Shown here: piece after piece, positions 43,995 through 53,337 of the stretch
Layout: each line of letters opens with the position of its first letter
Position numbering within the stretch: position 1 is the stretch's first letter
Assembly (NCBI RefSeq): GCF_029338555.1
Contig: NZ_CP119989.1
Coordinates: forward strand, 2,108,001 to 2,172,000
DNA from: Halobaculum marinum
GTDB lineage: Archaea; Halobacteriota; Halobacteria; Halobacteriales; Haloferacaceae
Length of the DNA stretch: 64,000 nucleotides
Reading direction: 5' to 3'
The notes under the pieces: generated by a model
Database searches by the model: none
Seen by the model: only the letters and a program-made list of their open reading frames with translations
What the model was told of the DNA's origin: nothing
Program-made: the position numbers and the translations under genes

Positions 43995-46256
43995 ATGGGA
44001 CTGGACGACGACGCGCGGGAGTACCACCGATCGGACCCGCCCGGAAAGATCGAGATCTCGACGACGAAACCGACGAACACCCAGCGCGACCTCTCGCTCG
44101 CCTACTCGCCCGGCGTCGCGGCGCCGTGTCTCGACATCGACGAGGACGAGGAGCGGGCGTTCGAGTACACGGCGAAGGGGAACCTCGTCGGCGTCGTCTC
44201 CAACGGCTCGGCGGTCCTGGGCCTCGGCGACATCGGCGCGCAGGCGTCCAAGCCGGTCATGGAGGGGAAGGGCGTCCTGTTCAAGCGCTTCGCCGACATC
44301 GACGTGTTCGACATCGAGTTGGACCAGGAGGACCCCGAGGACATCATCCGGACGGTCGCGGCGATGGAGCCGACGTTCGGGGGGATCAACCTGGAGGACA
44401 TCAAGGCGCCCGAGTGCTTCGAGATCGAGGAGACGCTCCGTGAGAAGATGGACATCCCCGTGTTCCACGACGACCAGCACGGGACGGCGATCATCTCCGG
44501 CGCGGGGCTGATCAACGCCGCCGAAATCGTCGACAAGGACCTCTCGGACCTGGACATCGTGTTCTCGGGGGCGGGCGCCTCCGCCATCGCGACCGCGAAG
44601 TTCTACGTCGAACTCGGCGCGGACGCGAGCAACATCACGATGTGTGACTCCACCGGGATCATCACCGAGGAGCGCGCGGCGGCGGGCGAGGTGAACGAGT
44701 ACAAGGCGCAGTTCGCCAGTGAGGGTTCGGGCGGCGACCTCGCGGACGCGATGGAGGGGGCTGACGTGTTCGTCGGACTCTCCGTCGGCGGCATCGTCAG
44801 CCAGGAGATGGTGCAGTCGATGGCGTCGGATCCGGTCATCTTCGCGATGGCGAACCCCGACCCAGAGATCACCTACGAGGACGCCAAGAACGCCCGCGAC
44901 GACACGGTCATCATGGGGACGGGGCGCTCCGACTACCCGAACCAGGTAAACAACGTGCTCGGGTTCCCGTTCCTGTTCCGCGGCGCGCTCGACGTGCGCG
45001 CGACCGACATCAACGAGGAGATGAAGCGCGCCGCGGCGGAGGCGCTCGCCGAGTTGGCTCGTCAGGACGTGCCCGACGCCGTCGTGAAAGCGTACGGCGA
45101 CCAGCCGCTGAAGTTCGGGCCGGAGTACGTCATCCCGAAGCCGCTCGATCCGCGCGTCCTGTTCGAGGTCGCGCCCGCGGTCGCGCAGGCAGCGATGACC
45201 TCCGGCGTCGCCCGCTTCGACATCGACATCGAGGAGTACGCCGAGCGACTGGAGGCGCGCCTTGGCAAGAGCCGCGAGATGATGCGCGTCGTCCTGAACA
45301 AGGCTCGGTCGCAGCCAAAGCGCGTCGCGCTCGCGGAGGGCACCGACGAGAAGATGATCCGCGCGGCCTACCAGATGGCCGAACAGGGCATCGCTCACCC
45401 GGTCCTGCTGGGTGACCGCGACACCATCGAGTCCACGACCGCCCACCTCGGCTTAGAGTTCGACCCGGAGGTCGTCGACCCCGACGACGCCGAGGCCGCA
45501 GACGAGTACGCCGAGCGCCTCCACGAGATCCGCAAGCGCAAGGGGATCACCCGCTCTGAGGCCGGCGAACTCGTCCGCCGGGACACGAACTACCTCGGGA
45601 GCGTGATGGTCGAGCGCGGCGACGCCGACGCGCTGCTCACCGGGCTGACCCACCACTACCCGAGCGCCCTCCGCCCGCCGCTGCAGGTGATCGGCACCGC
45701 GCCGGACGCCGAGTACGTCGCCGGCGTGTACATGCTGACGTTCAAGAACCGCGTCGTGTTCTGCGCCGACACGACGGTGAACCAGGCGCCCGACGCCGAG
45801 GTGCTGGCAGAGGTGACCAAACACACCGCGAAGCTCGCACGCCGCTTCAACGTCGAGCCACGCGCGGCGATGCTGTCGTACTCCAACTTCGGCTCCGTCG
45901 ACAACGAGGGCACCCGCAAGCCCCGGGCAGCGGTCGAACTCCTGCACAACGACCCCGAAGTCGACTTCCCAGTCGACGGGGAGATGCAGGCCGACACCGC
46001 CGTCGTCGAGGACATCCTCGAGGACACGTACTCGTTCTCGGAACTCGACGGCCCGGCGAACGTGCTCGTGTTCCCGAACCTCGAAGCGGGGAACATCGGC
46101 TACAAACTGCTCCAGCGCCTCGGCGGCGCCGAGGCCATCGGCCCGATGCTCGTCGGGATGGACCAGCCCGTGCACGTGATGCAGCGCGGCGACGAGGTGA
46201 AAGACATCGTCAACCTCGCCGGCGTGGCGGTCGTCGACGCGCAAGACGACGAGTAG
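43995..46256 (+). CDS. maeB: NADP-dependent malic enzyme with C-terminal phosphotransacetylase domain
   Basis: The 753-residue protein combines a malic enzyme (residues 1 to about 430: [55 protein letters not shown]) with a phosphotransacetylase-like domain (about 435-753: [40 protein letters not shown]). It decarboxylates malate to pyruvate with NADP. In bacterial MaeB the second domain is catalytically inactive and regulates the enzyme by binding acetyl-CoA; whether that applies here is not known. This is the normal two-domain MaeB length. It has its own promoter. Confidence 0.94.
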
Positions 46257-46410: not shown

Positions 46411-46821
46411 ATGGACGTACACGAGCTACTCGCGGACGAGCGCGCAGTATCACCGGTCATCGGCGTCATCCTGATGGTCGCGATCACGGTCATCCTGGCG
46501 GCGGTCGTCGGATCGTTCGTCTTCGGGATCGGCGGACAGGTCCAGCCGTCGTCGCCGAACGCCAACTTCCAGTTCGACTACGAGGCGGACGGGAGCACCT
46601 ACAACGTGACCGCCAGACACAGCGGCGGCGACACGATTTCGGCGGACGAGACGGTTCAGCTGGCGACGCCCGCGGGAACCGAGAACTTCACCGGCGACGT
46701 GTCCGCTGGAAAGACGGCGATGGTGTCAGGTGTCGCACCGGAGACGACCGTCCGCGTGATCTGGGTGTCGGCCAACGGGGAGGACTCGTCGGTGCTTGCC
46801 GAAGAGCAGACGCCGGCGTAA
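46411..46821 (+). CDS. Type IV pilin, PilA-like
   Basis: The 136-residue precursor has a 12-residue leader ending DERA, then VSPVIGVILMVAITVILAAV, the PilA-type hydrophobic core of haloarchaeal adhesion pilins. PibD should cleave after Ala 12. The mature beta-rich domain ends VRVIWVSANGEDSS, similar to the pilin at 23805. PilA-type pilins mediate surface adhesion and biofilm formation in Haloferax. No assembly ATPase gene is adjacent; the peptide importer genes follow after 119 bases with their own promoter. Confidence 0.92.
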   Translation: MDVHELLADERAVSPVIGVILMVAITVILAAVVGSFVFGIGGQVQPSSPNANFQFDYEADGSTYNVTARHSGGDTISADETVQLATPAGTENFTGDVSAGKTAMVSGVAPETTVRVIWVSANGEDSSVLAEEQTPA

Positions 46822-46940: not shown

Positions 46941-48590
46941 ATGGCTGATCAGAACACGAGCAGGCGTCGGTTCCTCCAAGCGGCGGGATCGGCGGCAGCC
47001 GCGACCGCGCTGGCTGGCTGTGCCGGCGGGAACGGAGACGGTGAATCGACCCCGACCGACGAACCGACCGAGACGGGCGGCGACGGGTCGACGCCGACTG
47101 CCGAGCCGACCGAGCGGCCGGAGCCGACGACGCGCGAGGGGTACCTCCAGCGCGCGAACCGACTGATCCACGACGAGGCGCCGTGGGTGTTCCTCCACCG
47201 CCAGTTCTCCGTGTACGGCCAGTCGGCCGACATCGAGTGGGAACCGCGCACGGACGAGCGCGTCGCAGCGTACGGCATCGAGCCGGCGTCGGACGCCGGC
47301 GAGGACGTCGTGATGACGCAGTCGCAGATGGACTCCGGGCTCGACCCGCACGACCACCGCGAGACGCCGACGGACAACATCGTCCTGCAGGCGTACGAGG
47401 GCGTGCTGGAGCGCGACGCGCAGGGTGCGATCGTCGCGACGCTCGCGACCGACTACCAGCGACTCGACGAGACGACCGTCCAGTTCACGGTCCGCGACGA
47501 CGTCTCGTTCCACTCCGGCGACTCGCTCTCGCCCGCGGACGTCGCCTACTCGATCAACCGCATCGTCCAGTCGGACGTCGGCATCGAGTCCCCGCAGGTC
47601 GACCAGCTCCTCGGCGTCGAGGGTGCAGAGGTCGCCTCCGAGGACGACCGCACGGTGAACGTGAGCCTCACGGGGCTCAACCCCATCGTGTTCGCGTCGT
47701 TCGCGACGTACTGCGACGTGATGAACCAGTCGTGGGTCGAGAGCAACGACAACGCGTACATCAACCAGAACATGGACGGGACCGGCCCGTTCCAGCTCTC
47801 GAACTACGAGCAGGGCGTCGAAGTCGCCTACGAGCGCTTCGAGGACTACTGGGACGAGCCCGCGGCCATCTCGACGTTCACCATCAACAACGCGTCGGAG
47901 GCGTCGACCCGCGTCAACCGTCTCCTCGCCGGCGAGTCCGACATCGCCGTGAACGTGCCGCCCCAGGAGGTCTCGCGCGTCGAGAACAACGACGGCACGT
48001 CCATCGCGGCGGTCCCGTCCACGCGCGTCATCTTCAACGCGATGCGCTACGACGTCGAGCCGTTCGACTCCCCGCAGTTCCGGCAGGCCGTCAACTACGC
48101 GGTCGACCTCGAGTCGATCATCGAGAACGTGCTCCAGACGTTCGGCTCGCCGACGGGTCAGCCGACGCTCGAGGGGTTCTTCGGCTACAACCCGGACGTC
48201 GACCCGTACCCGCGTGACCTCGAGCGCGCCGAGCAGCTCGTTGAGGAGTCCGGCTACGCCGGCGCCGAGATCGAGCTCGTGACGCCGATTGGTCGCTACC
48301 TGAAAGACGTGGAGATCGCGCAGGCGGTCGCCGCGCAGGTCGACGAACTGCCGAACGTGTCCGCGACAGCCCGACAGGTGGAGTTCTCCACGCTCGTCAG
48401 TCAGGTGACGACGGGCAACATCGAGGACAAGCCACCGTGGTACCTCCTCGGGTGGGGGAACGCCACGTTCGACGCGATCCAGACGATCCAGCCGCTCCTC
48501 GCGAGCGACGGGTCGCTGACGTCGTACAGTAACGATGAGCTGGACCGCCTCCTCGACGAGGCGCAGCAGCTGCCGAGCGAGTCGAACTAG
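46941..48590 (+). CDS. Peptide/nickel-type ABC transporter binding lipoprotein, apparently circularly permuted
   Basis: The 549-residue precursor has a Tat twin-Arg motif (SRRRFLQAAG), lipobox LAGC near residue 27 and a Ser/Thr/Pro linker. Residues 65-115 (REGYLQRANRLIHDEAPWVF, then HRQFSVYG and DERVAAYGIEP) match the segment that normally ends family-5 solute-binding proteins (the 'EAPWVFLH ... DERV' tail). The normal N-terminal core follows from about residue 120 (VVMTQSQMDSGLDPHDHRET), through FHSGDSLSPADVAYSINRIV, and the protein ends LDEAQQLPSESN, exactly before where that tail should start. Two hypotheses fit: a genuine circular permutation, or an artefact. It heads a five-gene importer operon. 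Confidence 0.88.
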   Translation: MADQNTSRRRFLQAAGSAAAATALAGCAGGNGDGESTPTDEPTETGGDGSTPTAEPTERPEPTTREGYLQRANRLIHDEAPWVFLHRQFSVYGQSADIEWEPRTDERVAAYGIEPASDAGEDVVMTQSQMDSGLDPHDHRETPTDNIVLQAYEGVLERDAQGAIVATLATDYQRLDETTVQFTVRDDVSFHSGDSLSPADVAYSINRIVQSDVGIESPQVDQLLGVEGAEVASEDDRTVNVSLTGLNPIVFASFATYCDVMNQSWVESNDNAYINQNMDGTGPFQLSNYEQGVEVAYERFEDYWDEPAAISTFTINNASEASTRVNRLLAGESDIAVNVPPQEVSRVENNDGTSIAAVPSTRVIFNAMRYDVEPFDSPQFRQAVNYAVDLESIIENVLQTFGSPTGQPTLEGFFGYNPDVDPYPRDLERAEQLVEESGYAGAEIELVTPIGRYLKDVEIAQAVAAQVDELPNVSATARQVEFSTLVSQVTTGNIEDKPPWYLLGWGNATFDAIQTIQPLLASDGSLTSYSNDELDRLLDEAQQLPSESN

Positions 48591-48597
48591 GCCGCCA

Positions 48598-49590
48598 ATG
48601 GGTTACGGCCGTTTTCTTCTGAAGCGGGGGGTACAGGGAGTGGGCGTCGTCTGGGGAGTGGTGACTGTCGTGTTCATCCTCCGGTTCATCACACCGGGGT
48701 CCCCCATCGACACCGTGGCACCGCTCGACGCGAGTCAAGAGACTCGCCAGCGGATCGCCGCAGAACTGGGACTGGATCAGCCGCTGTACGTCCAGTACCT
48801 CGACTACATCGTGGAGCTCCTGCAGGGCAACATGGGGTACTCGTACATCTCGAGCATCCCCGCGTCCGTGCAGGTGTTCCAGAAGCTGCCGGCGACGCTC
48901 GAACTCGCCGTCGCCGCCAGCATCGTCGCCGTGGTGCTGTCGATCCCACTGGGCGTGATCTCGGCGACGCGGCGCCACCAGCCGGCGGACTACGCGGCGA
49001 CGTCGTTCTCGCTGCTGGGCATCTCGACGCCCAACTTCTGGCTGGGTATCATGCTCGTGCTGGTGTTCGCCGTCGAACTGAACGTGTTCCCGACTAGCGG
49101 TCGGGCGTACGGGTTCGGCGAGGCGCTGGCTGCGATCACCGGGCCACAGCCGTTCGTCCCCGTGGTGACGGCGTGGCTCGCGTCGCTCGTGTTGCCGGCG
49201 ATCACGCTGGGGACGTACTTCACCGCGCTCATCACGCGCCTCGTCCGCTCGGGGATGCTCGACGAGCTGTCGGAGGGGTACGTCCGTGCGACGCGAGCGA
49301 AGGGGTTACCCGAGACGCTCGTCCGCTACAAGCACGTGCTCCGGAACACGCTCGTGCCCGTCGTGACCGTCCTCGGCCTCCAGTTGGGGACGCTCATCGG
49401 CGGCGCGGTCATCACGGAGGCGGTGTTCGCGTGGCCTGGCCTCGGGTCCGAGATCATCCGCGCGATCAACGCCCGTGACTGGCCCATCCTCCAAGGGAGC
49501 CTCATCGTGATCGGCTGTGGGTTCGTCCTGCTCAACATCGCGGTCGACGCGCTGTACGCGTACCTCGACCCGCGGGTGGTGGCAGAATGA
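48598..49590 (+). CDS. dppB: Peptide/nickel ABC transporter permease, DppB-like
   Basis: The 330-residue membrane protein has six helices, the DppB-type N-terminus RFLLKRGVQGVGVVWGVVTV and the EAA loop YVRATRAKGLPETLVRYKHV, where it meets the ATPases. It follows the binding protein gene by seven bases, and its stop overlaps the next permease as ATGA. It forms the membrane channel together with the DppC-like protein. Confidence 0.94.
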   Translation: MGYGRFLLKRGVQGVGVVWGVVTVVFILRFITPGSPIDTVAPLDASQETRQRIAAELGLDQPLYVQYLDYIVELLQGNMGYSYISSIPASVQVFQKLPATLELAVAASIVAVVLSIPLGVISATRRHQPADYAATSFSLLGISTPNFWLGIMLVLVFAVELNVFPTSGRAYGFGEALAAITGPQPFVPVVTAWLASLVLPAITLGTYFTALITRLVRSGMLDELSEGYVRATRAKGLPETLVRYKHVLRNTLVPVVTVLGLQLGTLIGGAVITEAVFAWPGLGSEIIRAINARDWPILQGSLIVIGCGFVLLNIAVDALYAYLDPRVVAE

Positions 49591-50660
49591 AGATCGGCCC
49601 GCTGTCGATCTCACCGCGGACGATCCGCAACCTCCGCAAGGAGTTCCGCTCGTCGGGGCTGGCCCGGATCGGCGTCGTGCTGGTCGTGCTCGTGCTGTTG
49701 GCGGCGGTGTTCGCGCCGATGATCGCGCCGCACAACCCCCGAACCCAGAACCTCGACCAGGCACAACTGCCGCCGCTGGGGTTCACCGACACCGAACAGC
49801 AGACCCGCTCGGAGATGGTCAACGGCAGCATCGAGACCGTCACCGAGAACGTGACCGTGAACGCGACGACGAAGTACCCGATGGGAACCAACTCGTTGGG
49901 GCAGGACATCCTCTCGCGGGCCATCTACGGCGCGCGAACGTCGCTGCTCGTCGGGTTCTTCGGGACGCTGTTGGCGGCGCTGTTGGGCGTCACCGTCGGC
50001 CTCACCGCGGGCTACTACCGCGGTCGCGTCGACGACGCGCTGATGCGCACGGCCGACGTGTCGCTGGCGTTCCCGTCGCTGGTGCTGGCGATCGCACTGA
50101 TCGGGCTGTTCAGCAGGTTCCAAGCGAGCGTGGCCATCAAGGTCACCGATCCGCTGGTGGCGACCGGGTTCGCGGGGTGGTTCCGCGAGTTGGTCGGCCT
50201 GCCGACGCCGATGCCCGAGACGTTCGTGTTGCCGACGGTCGTCATCTTGGTCGTCGGCTTCGTCAACTGGGTGTGGTTCGCCCGCATCGCGCGCGGCGAG
50301 GCGCTCTCGATCCGCGAGGAGGAGTACGTGAAGGCCGCCCGCGCACTGGGTGGCAGCGACACCCGGATCGTGTTCCGGCACGTCCTGCCCAACGCCATCA
50401 CGCCCATCCTCGTGCTCGCGACCATCCAGGTGGCCGCGATCATCCTGCTGGAATCTGCGCTGTCGTTCCTCGGCTTCTCGGGGACGACGCTCTCGTGGGG
50501 ATTCGACATTGCCCAAGGACGTGACTACCTCTCGTCGTCGTGGTGGATCGCTACCGTGCCCGGCCTCGCCATCGTGCTGTCGGTCATCGGCATCAACCTC
50601 GTGGGGGACTGGCTCCGCGACGCGCTCGATCCGGGTATCGAGGGCGAGGGGGGACTGTAG
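49587..50660 (+). CDS. dppC: Peptide/nickel ABC transporter permease, DppC-like
   Basis: The 357-residue membrane protein has the DppC layout: a first helix (IGVVLVVLVLLAAVFAPMI), an external loop with several NxT sequons, LGQDILSRAIYGARTSLLVG, and the EAA loop EEYVKAARALGGSDTRIVFR. It is coupled to dppB by an ATGA overlap and precedes the first ATPase gene with no gap. The external insert between residues 50 and 95 is longer than in bacterial DppC. Confidence 0.94.
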   Translation: MKIGPLSISPRTIRNLRKEFRSSGLARIGVVLVVLVLLAAVFAPMIAPHNPRTQNLDQAQLPPLGFTDTEQQTRSEMVNGSIETVTENVTVNATTKYPMGTNSLGQDILSRAIYGARTSLLVGFFGTLLAALLGVTVGLTAGYYRGRVDDALMRTADVSLAFPSLVLAIALIGLFSRFQASVAIKVTDPLVATGFAGWFRELVGLPTPMPETFVLPTVVILVVGFVNWVWFARIARGEALSIREEEYVKAARALGGSDTRIVFRHVLPNAITPILVLATIQVAAIILLESALSFLGFSGTTLSWGFDIAQGRDYLSSSWWIATVPGLAIVLSVIGINLVGDWLRDALDPGIEGEGGL

Positions 50661-51905
50661 ATGAGCGACGCAGCCACCCGCGCCGAGGAGACGGGCGCCC
50701 CCGAGGGGCACCCGGACGACGTGCTCCGGGTGCGGAACCTCTCGACGCGCTTCTTCACCGAAGAGGGGCAGATCAACGCCGTCGAGTCCGTCGACTTCAC
50801 CGTCCGCGACGGCGAGGTGTTCGGCATCGTCGGCGAGTCCGGATCCGGCAAGTCGGTGACGGCGCTGTCGCTCATCGACCTCGTCGACTCGCCCGGCCGC
50901 ATCACGCAAGGCGAGGTGTGGTACCGCGACGCCGACCTCGCAGACGAGTTCCGCGACAAGACGCCCGAGGCCGTCGACGGCGACTTCGTCGACACGCGTC
51001 GTCTCCCAAAGGGGGTGCGCCGCGCGCTGCGCGGTCCGGCGTTCTCGATGGTGTTCCAAGACCCGATGTCGTCGCTGAACCCGTCGGTCACCGTCGGCGA
51101 GCAGATCGCCGAGGCCGTCGAGGTGCAGCGCCGCGCGAAGGCGAACCCGCGACGGACGCGGTCGCGTTCGCAGGGGTACGGCATGGGCCGCCTCATCGCC
51201 GACACACTGCTCCCGAACCGGGGGTTCACCTCCGAGTCGAGCATGAACCGCGCGATCGAACTGCTCGAACAGGTCGGCATCCCCGACCCCGCAGAGCGCG
51301 CCCACGAGTACCCCCACCAGTTCTCCGGCGGGATGCTCCAGCGCGCGATGATCGCGCAGGCGCTGGCCGGCGAACCCGACATCCTAGTCGCCGACGAGCC
51401 GACGACCGCACTCGACGTGACGATCCAAGCGCAGATCCTCAACCTCCTGCGCGACCTGCAAGAACAACAGGGCACGTCCGTCGTGATGATCACCCACGAC
51501 CTGGGGGTCATCGCCCGGATGTGCAACCGCGTCGGCGTGATGTACGCCGGCCAGATCGTCGAACGCGGGACGCTGTCGGACGTGTTCGAGACGCCCGTCC
51601 ACCCGTACACGCAGGGACTGCTCGGGTCGATCCCCGATCTGGACGACCCCGCACCGCGCCTCCAACCCATCGAGGGGAACGTCCCCTCGCTGCTGGACGA
51701 GGAGATGGGCGGGCGGTGCTTCTTCGCCGACCGCTGTCCGAAGGCCATGACCGACTGTCTCCAGCCAATCTCCGAGTCCGCCGCCGAGCCAGGCTCCGAC
51801 GAGCACACCGCCCGGTGCGTCCTGACGCAACGGGAGTTCGCCGAGGCCGACGCGCTCGCGCCGGACCACTTCGACCGGAACACGGAGGTGCGCAGCGATG
51901 AGTGA
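50661..51905 (+). CDS. dppD: Peptide/nickel ABC transporter ATPase, DppD-like
   Basis: The 414-residue ATPase has Walker A GESGSGKSVTALS near residue 59, FSMVFQDPMSSLNP, signature FSGGMLQRAMIAQAL, Walker B ILVADEPTTALDV and the C-terminal oligopeptide-transport motif with paired Cys (GGRCFFADRCPKAMTDCLQP). It is longer than bacterial DppD (about 330) because of two haloarchaeal insertions after the Walker A helix and in the helical domain. It overlaps the next ATPase gene by eight bases. Confidence 0.94.
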   Translation: MSDAATRAEETGAPEGHPDDVLRVRNLSTRFFTEEGQINAVESVDFTVRDGEVFGIVGESGSGKSVTALSLIDLVDSPGRITQGEVWYRDADLADEFRDKTPEAVDGDFVDTRRLPKGVRRALRGPAFSMVFQDPMSSLNPSVTVGEQIAEAVEVQRRAKANPRRTRSRSQGYGMGRLIADTLLPNRGFTSESSMNRAIELLEQVGIPDPAERAHEYPHQFSGGMLQRAMIAQALAGEPDILVADEPTTALDVTIQAQILNLLRDLQEQQGTSVVMITHDLGVIARMCNRVGVMYAGQIVERGTLSDVFETPVHPYTQGLLGSIPDLDDPAPRLQPIEGNVPSLLDEEMGGRCFFADRCPKAMTDCLQPISESAAEPGSDEHTARCVLTQREFAEADALAPDHFDRNTEVRSDE

Positions 51906-53337
51906 GTCGCAGTCGAGCACCGACCGCACGGACGCCCGCGAGGGTGAGCCGTTGCTGAAGGTCCGTGGGCTCAAGAAGTACTACTTCGAGGACGACACGC
52001 TGTTCGACAAACTGCTCCGGAACGAGCCGACGAGCGTGAAGGCCGTCGACGGCGTCGACCTCGACGTCCACCGCGGCGAGACGCTCGGCGTCGTCGGCGA
52101 GTCCGGCTGTGGGAAGTCGACGACCGGTGAGACGCTGTTGCGACTGCGCGAGGCGACCGCCGGCACCGTCGAGTTCGACGGCGAGGACGTGATGGAGATG
52201 ACGGGCGACGAACTGACGCGCTTCCGCAAGCGCGCTGGCATCGTCTTCCAGGACCCGTTCTCCAGTCTCGACCCGCGCATGACGGTCGGGGACATCGTCA
52301 GCGAGGGGCTGAAGATCCACGACCTCCCCGAGGAGTCGCCCGACGACGGGCGCTCGAAGCGGGAGTGGCGCCGCGACCGCGCCAAGGACCTGCTCGAACG
52401 CGTCGGCCTGTCCGCCGACCAGATCGACCGCTACCCCCACGAGTTCTCCGGCGGCCAGCGCCAGCGCGTCGGCATCGCCCGCGCGCTCGCGCTCGACCCG
52501 GAGTTCGTCGTCCTCGACGAACCGGTGTCGGCGCTGGACGTGAGCGTCCAGGCACAGATCCTGAACCTGCTGGAAGACCTCCAGGAGGAGTTCGGACTGA
52601 CGTACCTGTTCATCGCGCACGACCTCAGCGTCGTCCGCCACATCTGCGACCGCGTCGCCGTGATGTACCTCGGCGAAGTGATCGAGACGGGCGCGACCGA
52701 CGACATCTTCGACTCGCCGAAGCACCCGTACACCGAGGCACTGTTGGAGTCGGTGCCACGAGCCGCCGTCGAAGAGCAAGGGCGGCGCGTCGAGGCGCTC
52801 TCGGGCGACGTGCCCTCGCCCCGTGACCCGCCATCCGGCTGCCACTTCCGGACGCGGTGTCCGAAGGTGATCCAGCCGCCGACCATCGACATCCCGCAGG
52901 CGCAGTATCGCGGCGTGATGGACCTGCGCGACCGCCTCGAACGCGAGGGGTTCTCCGCCGAGTCCGTCTGGGACACCCTCGAGAGCGAACACCACGGAGA
53001 CGAGCCGTTCGAGCGCGACCCGGTCGCGTTCAAAGAGGCGCTGCGCGACGAGTTCGACCTCCGCGGGCTGACGGGCGCCACGATGGACACCGTCGAGGAC
53101 GCCCTCGAAATCCTCGCAAACGGCCGTGAGGAGGAGGCCGCGAGTCGACTCCGCGACGGCTTCGCCTCTCCCTGCGAGCAGGAAGAGCCCGTGTTGACCG
53201 GCGGCACGCACGCCGTCTCCTGTCACCTGTACGCGGACGAGGACTACGAGACCGAGGTCGACCCGGACGACATCGGGAGTGCGATGGGCGGGATGCCCGA
53301 GGTCGATGGCGAACGCGCCAGCGTCGACGACCAGTAG
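51898..53337 (+). CDS. dppF: Peptide/nickel ABC transporter ATPase, DppF-like, with C-terminal insertion
   Basis: The 479-residue ATPase has Walker A GESGCGKSTTGET near residue 66, VFQDPFSSLDPRMTVG, signature FSGGQRQRVGIARAL, and Walker B FVVLDEPVSALDV. The C-terminal oligopeptide motif is split: GCHFRTRCPKVIQPP ends near residue 327 and its partner TGGTHAVSCHLY appears near residue 437. The roughly 110 intervening residues are acidic and helical (for example MDLRDRLEREGFSAESVWDT). This makes it much longer than bacterial DppF (about 330). It is the last gene of the operon. Confidence 0.93.
   Translation: MSESQSSTDRTDAREGEPLLKVRGLKKYYFEDDTLFDKLLRNEPTSVKAVDGVDLDVHRGETLGVVGESGCGKSTTGETLLRLREATAGTVEFDGEDVMEMTGDELTRFRKRAGIVFQDPFSSLDPRMTVGDIVSEGLKIHDLPEESPDDGRSKREWRRDRAKDLLERVGLSADQIDRYPHEFSGGQRQRVGIARALALDPEFVVLDEPVSALDVSVQAQILNLLEDLQEEFGLTYLFIAHDLSVVRHICDRVAVMYLGEVIETGATDDIFDSPKHPYTEALLESVPRAAVEEQGRRVEALSGDVPSPRDPPSGCHFRTRCPKVIQPPTIDIPQAQYRGVMDLRDRLEREGFSAESVWDTLESEHHGDEPFERDPVAFKEALRDEFDLRGLTGATMDTVEDALEILANGREEEAASRLRDGFASPCEQEEPVLTGGTHAVSCHLYADEDYETEVDPDDIGSAMGGMPEVDGERASVDDQ

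Follow-up and report, generated by a model that had tools for sequence, protein, structure and literature searches.

Permuted Binding Proteins and Their Closest Relatives

The described protein that comes closest is TpMglB-2 (Tp0684) of Treponema pallidum, a circularly permuted glucose-binding lipoprotein of cluster B, whose authors suggest that the permutation is an adaptation to tethering (PMC4990184). The protein encoded at positions 46941-48590 of the window (the whole 64,000-nucleotide stretch of the Halobaculum marinum genome analysed here) resembles it in being an ABC solute-binding protein (SBP) with a lipid anchor that is naturally permuted, conserved in a lineage and with segments of one lobe reordered. 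The two nonetheless differ in fold class and breakpoints: TpMglB-2 is of cluster B (type I), whereas the haloarchaeal SBP falls in family 5 by its PF00496 match and its Foldseek neighbours. In TpMglB-2, the old N-terminal strands are found at the C-terminus, while in the haloarchaeal SBP the old C-terminal segment is found at the N-terminus. Moreover, TpMglB-2 matches its normal form at 13-26% of positions, whereas the haloarchaeal SBP has unpermuted homologues that are up to about 65% identical, which makes the permutation event far clearer here.

The best structural neighbours are the SBPs of the DppA/OppA/NikA type (PF00496; 5u4o, 1uqw, 1dpp, and 4ra1), which are alike in core fold, operon, and transporter class; in these solved relatives, however, the tail is C-terminal. 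The unpermuted homologues of Haloferax, Halogranum, Halorussus, Haladaptatus, and Haloquadratum (L023-L037 and L101-L143) have the same downstream permease and the same type of linker but the normal order of segments; the core identity of the former set (L023-L037) to the Halobaculum protein is 47-67%. A search of open-licence papers found no permuted oligopeptide-binding, family-5, or haloarchaeal binding protein, and the CIRPIN preprint is silent on binding proteins. Within the open-licence literature, the protein may thus be the first described permuted member of family 5.

The Gene and the Layout of Its Product

Translation of the forward-strand open reading frame gives 549 residues (Table 1). 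R8, R9, and C27 of the signal region are invariant in an alignment of 14 permuted homologues; the Tat and lipoprotein reading of this signal follows what is established for haloarchaeal lipoproteins. The lipoprotein linker is separated from the core by a segment (residues 65-113) that reads REGYLQRANRLIHDEAPWVFLHRQFSVYGQSADIEWEPRTDERVAAYGI. The PF00496 match spans residues 164-524 (E 4.6e-65; 220.6 bits against a curated cut-off of 32.4) and covers the core alone, leaving residues 65-113 outside it. The new C-terminus, LPSESN, is in a loop whose two flanking helices directly follow one another in normal homologues, and the last helix of the 492-residue model stops at 485. The break point is, in other words, an inter-helix loop, and the acceptor site is a disordered linker. 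The SBP is a permuted variant of family 5 (cluster C) that stands outside the standard chain order. A sequence-only reading had proposed a circular permutation with the usual C-terminal segment at residues 65-115, the core from about residue 120, and the end at LPSESN; the alignment, the rotation, and the homologues described below bear out the permutation, and these coordinates are accurate to a few residues.

Table 1. Positions in the window of the parts of the permuted SBP gene and of the transporter genes behind it
Feature	Position	Strand	Basis
Twin-arginine-type signal peptide with lipobox (SRRRFLQ...LAGC; lipid-anchored Cys27)	46941..47021	+	Translation; homologue alignment
Low-complexity acidic/Thr/Pro linker, residues 28-64	47022..47132	+	Translation; fast evolving
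Relocated C-terminal segment, residues 65-113 (helix, long strand, DERV tail), now N-terminal	47133..47279	+	Alignment to the L023 C-terminus; model; pN/pS
Short joint EPASDAG, residues 114-120, from old C-terminus to old N-terminus	47280..47300	+	Translation; break position
Family-5 solute-binding core, SBP_bac_5, residues 121-549	47301..48587	+	PF00496 match
DppB/OppB-type permease	48598..49590	+	PF00528, PF19300; 7 nt past the SBP stop codon
DppC/OppC-type permease	49587..50660	+	PF00528, PF12911
DppD/OppD-type ATPase	50661..51905	+	PF00005, PF08352
DppF/OppF-type ATPase	51898..53337	+	PF00005, PF08352

Evidence for the Rotated Order of Segments

Sequence like that of residues 65-113 forms the C-terminal end of the unpermuted haloarchaeal homologues. 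Aligned without gaps to the C-terminus of one of these, L023, the tail is identical at 29 of 49 positions (59%), with a BLOSUM62 score of 165; 2000 shuffles gave a mean of 27.8, a standard deviation of 4.0, and a maximum of 55. When a 492-residue construct was rotated and compared with L023, the number of identities was at its maximum, 313, for a rotation near residue 60, as against 284 for the unrotated chain. A search of solved structures with a profile of the tail-core junction hit AccA in two separate pieces and in reversed order, with the core start at AccA chain residues 24-77 and the tail at 444-481; this search found no permuted relative. In the rest of the protein itself, the best match to the tail scores 31, which is the level expected by chance, so there is no second copy; the sequence-only reading had said as much of the C-terminus.

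One could suppose that the N-terminal segment is an unrelated domain that was added while the C-terminal tail was simply lost, and the linker at this end is variable in all relatives, so that an insertion would be easy. The gapless identity to the homologue C-terminus and a score three times the shuffled maximum argue against this, as does the pattern of helices and strands, which is equal in the permuted and unpermuted models, and an added domain has next to no probability. The initial identification of this segment with the usual C-terminal one is what the homologues show.

The Predicted Fold

AlphaFold2, given 51 permuted sequences, returned a model of the permuted protein with a pLDDT of 91.5 and a pTM of 0.87, in which the helix (8-22) and the strand (25-38) of the tail are confidently predicted, the block having a pLDDT of about 85-95. 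The figure of 91.5 is that of the single best of five models, the others ranging from 85.5 to 71.9, and this wide spread calls for caution. For the unpermuted L023, the corresponding values are 93.6 and 0.88, with all models at 92.5-93.6. After rotation, the secondary-structure strings of the two proteins are equal at 95.6% of 478 aligned positions.

In Foldseek, which aligns in chain order, the two models share their two best solved structures, 5u4o being the top one (E 1.7e-33 and probability 1.00 for the permuted model). The alignment to 5u4o extends over 494 columns with a target TM of 0.91 for the unpermuted model versus 443 columns and 0.75 for the permuted one; a loss of some 50 columns and a lower TM are as a permutation predicts. 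The predicted model has the two-lobed fold of DppA/OppA.

Distribution and Constraint

In 43 of the 394 class genomes searched, belonging to 13 genera and five family groups, the junction profile is matched across both halves, that is, tail and core are contiguous in the permuted order. About 100 further genomes of the class match it with the halves apart or with one half alone, which is the expectation for the normal order. Within Halobaculum, nine of the ten other genomes have the permuted form at full length and the tenth, G010, has the normal one. Genus members G008, G004, and G002 have loci equal to those of H. litoreum, H. saliterrae, and H. gomorrense, which points to Halobaculum as their genus. 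Scanning the named genomes yielded 80 loci, of which 35 are permuted and 45 are other; the permuted form occurs in Halobaculum, Halobonum, Halolamina, Halosimplex, Halobium, Halorarius, Halomarina, some species of Halorubrum, and Salinarchaeum, and also in uncultured Halobacteriales. In a sample covering the phylum, it was found in 8 of 394 genomes, every one in the taxonomic order of Halobaculum itself. The permutation is lineage-wide, a point on which the sequence-only reading had proposed a check, yet patchy over the haloarchaea.

Across 156 locus entries (many of them repeats of the same gene), the tail is N-terminal in 89, C-terminal in 64, and absent from three, and no intermediate with tails at both ends was found among them; nor did any fetched locus carry two SBP genes. 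Both forms occur in genus g13 and in Halorubrum, permuted in some species and normal in others, which suggests replacement or transfer inside a genus. Six permuted loci from the Halomarina group and its relatives (L057, L058, L059, L080, L084, and L085) have an extension of about 20-30 residues, rich in Gly, Ser, Asn, and Thr, at the new C-terminus.

Constraint was estimated from ten sequences, nine of Halobaculum and one, L018, from a different genus in the same family. The linker has a pN/pS of 0.78, against 0.36 in the tail and 0.26 in the core; unlike the linker, the relocated tail experiences purifying selection close to that on the core.

A trivial explanation would be an error of assembly or sequencing, or a one-off rearrangement that left a broken gene. 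Nothing speaks for it beyond the oddity of the order itself, and it is contradicted by the same order in the 43 genomes and 35 named loci, under purifying selection, so that it hardly deserves belief. The occurrence of the identical order in dozens of other genomes excludes an assembly error, which would have undone the original proposal. The circular permutation is real and conserved, and the permuted protein is probably functional.

The Operon and Its Substrate

The gene is followed by those of DppB-, DppC-, DppD-, and DppF-type transporter components (Table 1), and a permease family of the DppB type comes next in almost every haloarchaeal locus, permuted or normal, in which a downstream frame was found. 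None of the substrate-specific models of NCBIfam matches the SBP at its cut-off. The Dpp/Opp-type operon lends plausibility to the first description of the locus as a peptide importer and makes a peptide the likely substrate, but the description gains nothing from these models.

In one genome, G003, the position of the SBP stop codon (around L013:1500; locus L013, G003:C1:79502-81157, minus strand) is CAG and not TAG, and a single open frame of 915 residues runs through the permuted SBP and the DppB permease; this reflects a natural fusion or else a sequence difference of one base. On the other side of the SBP gene in the window, an archaeal type IV pilin N-terminal protein (PF07790) is encoded just upstream at 46411-46818, and a malic enzyme fused to a phosphate acetyl/butyryltransferase domain (753 residues) at 43995-46253.

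Binding proteins are sometimes recruited for sensing. The permuted protein might then no longer work with the importer and might serve as a sensor or as another kind of binding protein, and the shift of the tether that the permutation brings about would fit such a change. The SBP gene is, however, still the first, before those of DppB and then DppC, DppD, and DppF, and a loss of the importer function is very unlikely. The gene very probably encodes a functional, naturally circularly permuted family-5 lipoprotein SBP (cluster C, DppA/OppA/NikA-like), a reading that rests on the order of the segments, conservation, constraint, the operon context, and a confident predicted fold. Such a protein would be exported and folded in the usual two-lobed shape, and it would bind a small peptide or similar solute and hand it over to its own DppBCDF-type transporter.

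Origin of the Permutation

In an ancestor, the last 50 or so residues (one helix, one long strand, and the DERV tail) would have left the 3' end of the gene for the disordered linker behind the lipobox. The old end would have become fused to the old start, and the chain now finishes in the loop that connects the last two helices. The membrane tether, formerly ahead of the first strand of the core, would now be ahead of the relocated helix. The likeliest route would be the duplication of the gene or of the segment, after which the old copies would have been lost; with a flexible linker, and with old N- and C-termini in one lobe, the product would have been viable. Between the SBP stop codon and the permease, no remnant of the old tail scored above chance in 11 loci, and the breakpoints carry no informative repeats, short imperfect matches being the most that was found there.

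Did this happen once or more than once? In the tree of the core, the label permuted or normal changes four times. A divergent permuted group from one genus, g56 (L148-L151, in G133, G307, G273, and G327), is about 45% identical to the Halobaculum protein. This group sits among unpermuted sequences in both the core and the permease trees, as if the permutation had occurred at the same loop in these four genomes independently of the main group (Halobaculum, Halolamina, Halosimplex, Halorubrum, and others). Against this, a single clade of all the permuted sequences, the divergent group included, is not rejected with either the core (p-AU 0.09) or the permease (p-AU 0.344); when the divergent group is left out, the one-clade tree beats the free tree for the core (p-AU 0.708) and is again preferred for core and permease together. 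Furthermore, the breakpoints are shared, and long branches are involved. Recurrence is the less likely course of events. A single origin is compatible with the core and permease trees, and the simplest reading is a single origin together with transfer or differential loss.

An adaptation to tethering, as suggested for TpMglB-2, could apply to the haloarchaeal SBP as well; tethering alone is no explanation, because a lipobox is also present in the unpermuted haloarchaeal homologues. A bolder proposal is that haloarchaea relocated the tail repeatedly at one and the same loop, and that selection favoured this because the lipid anchor shifts to a different point of lobe I and the docking of the tethered protein on its permease changes; this is rather unlikely.

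Significance of the Permuted Form

Natural circular permutations have been recognised mostly between distant proteins. In the haloarchaea, permuted and unpermuted SBPs with up to about 65% identity precede the same permease family in sister genera and even in one genus, and such close pairs make the effect of a permutation on folding, tethering, and docking directly testable. The rearrangement is not flagged by Pfam, which matches the core alone.
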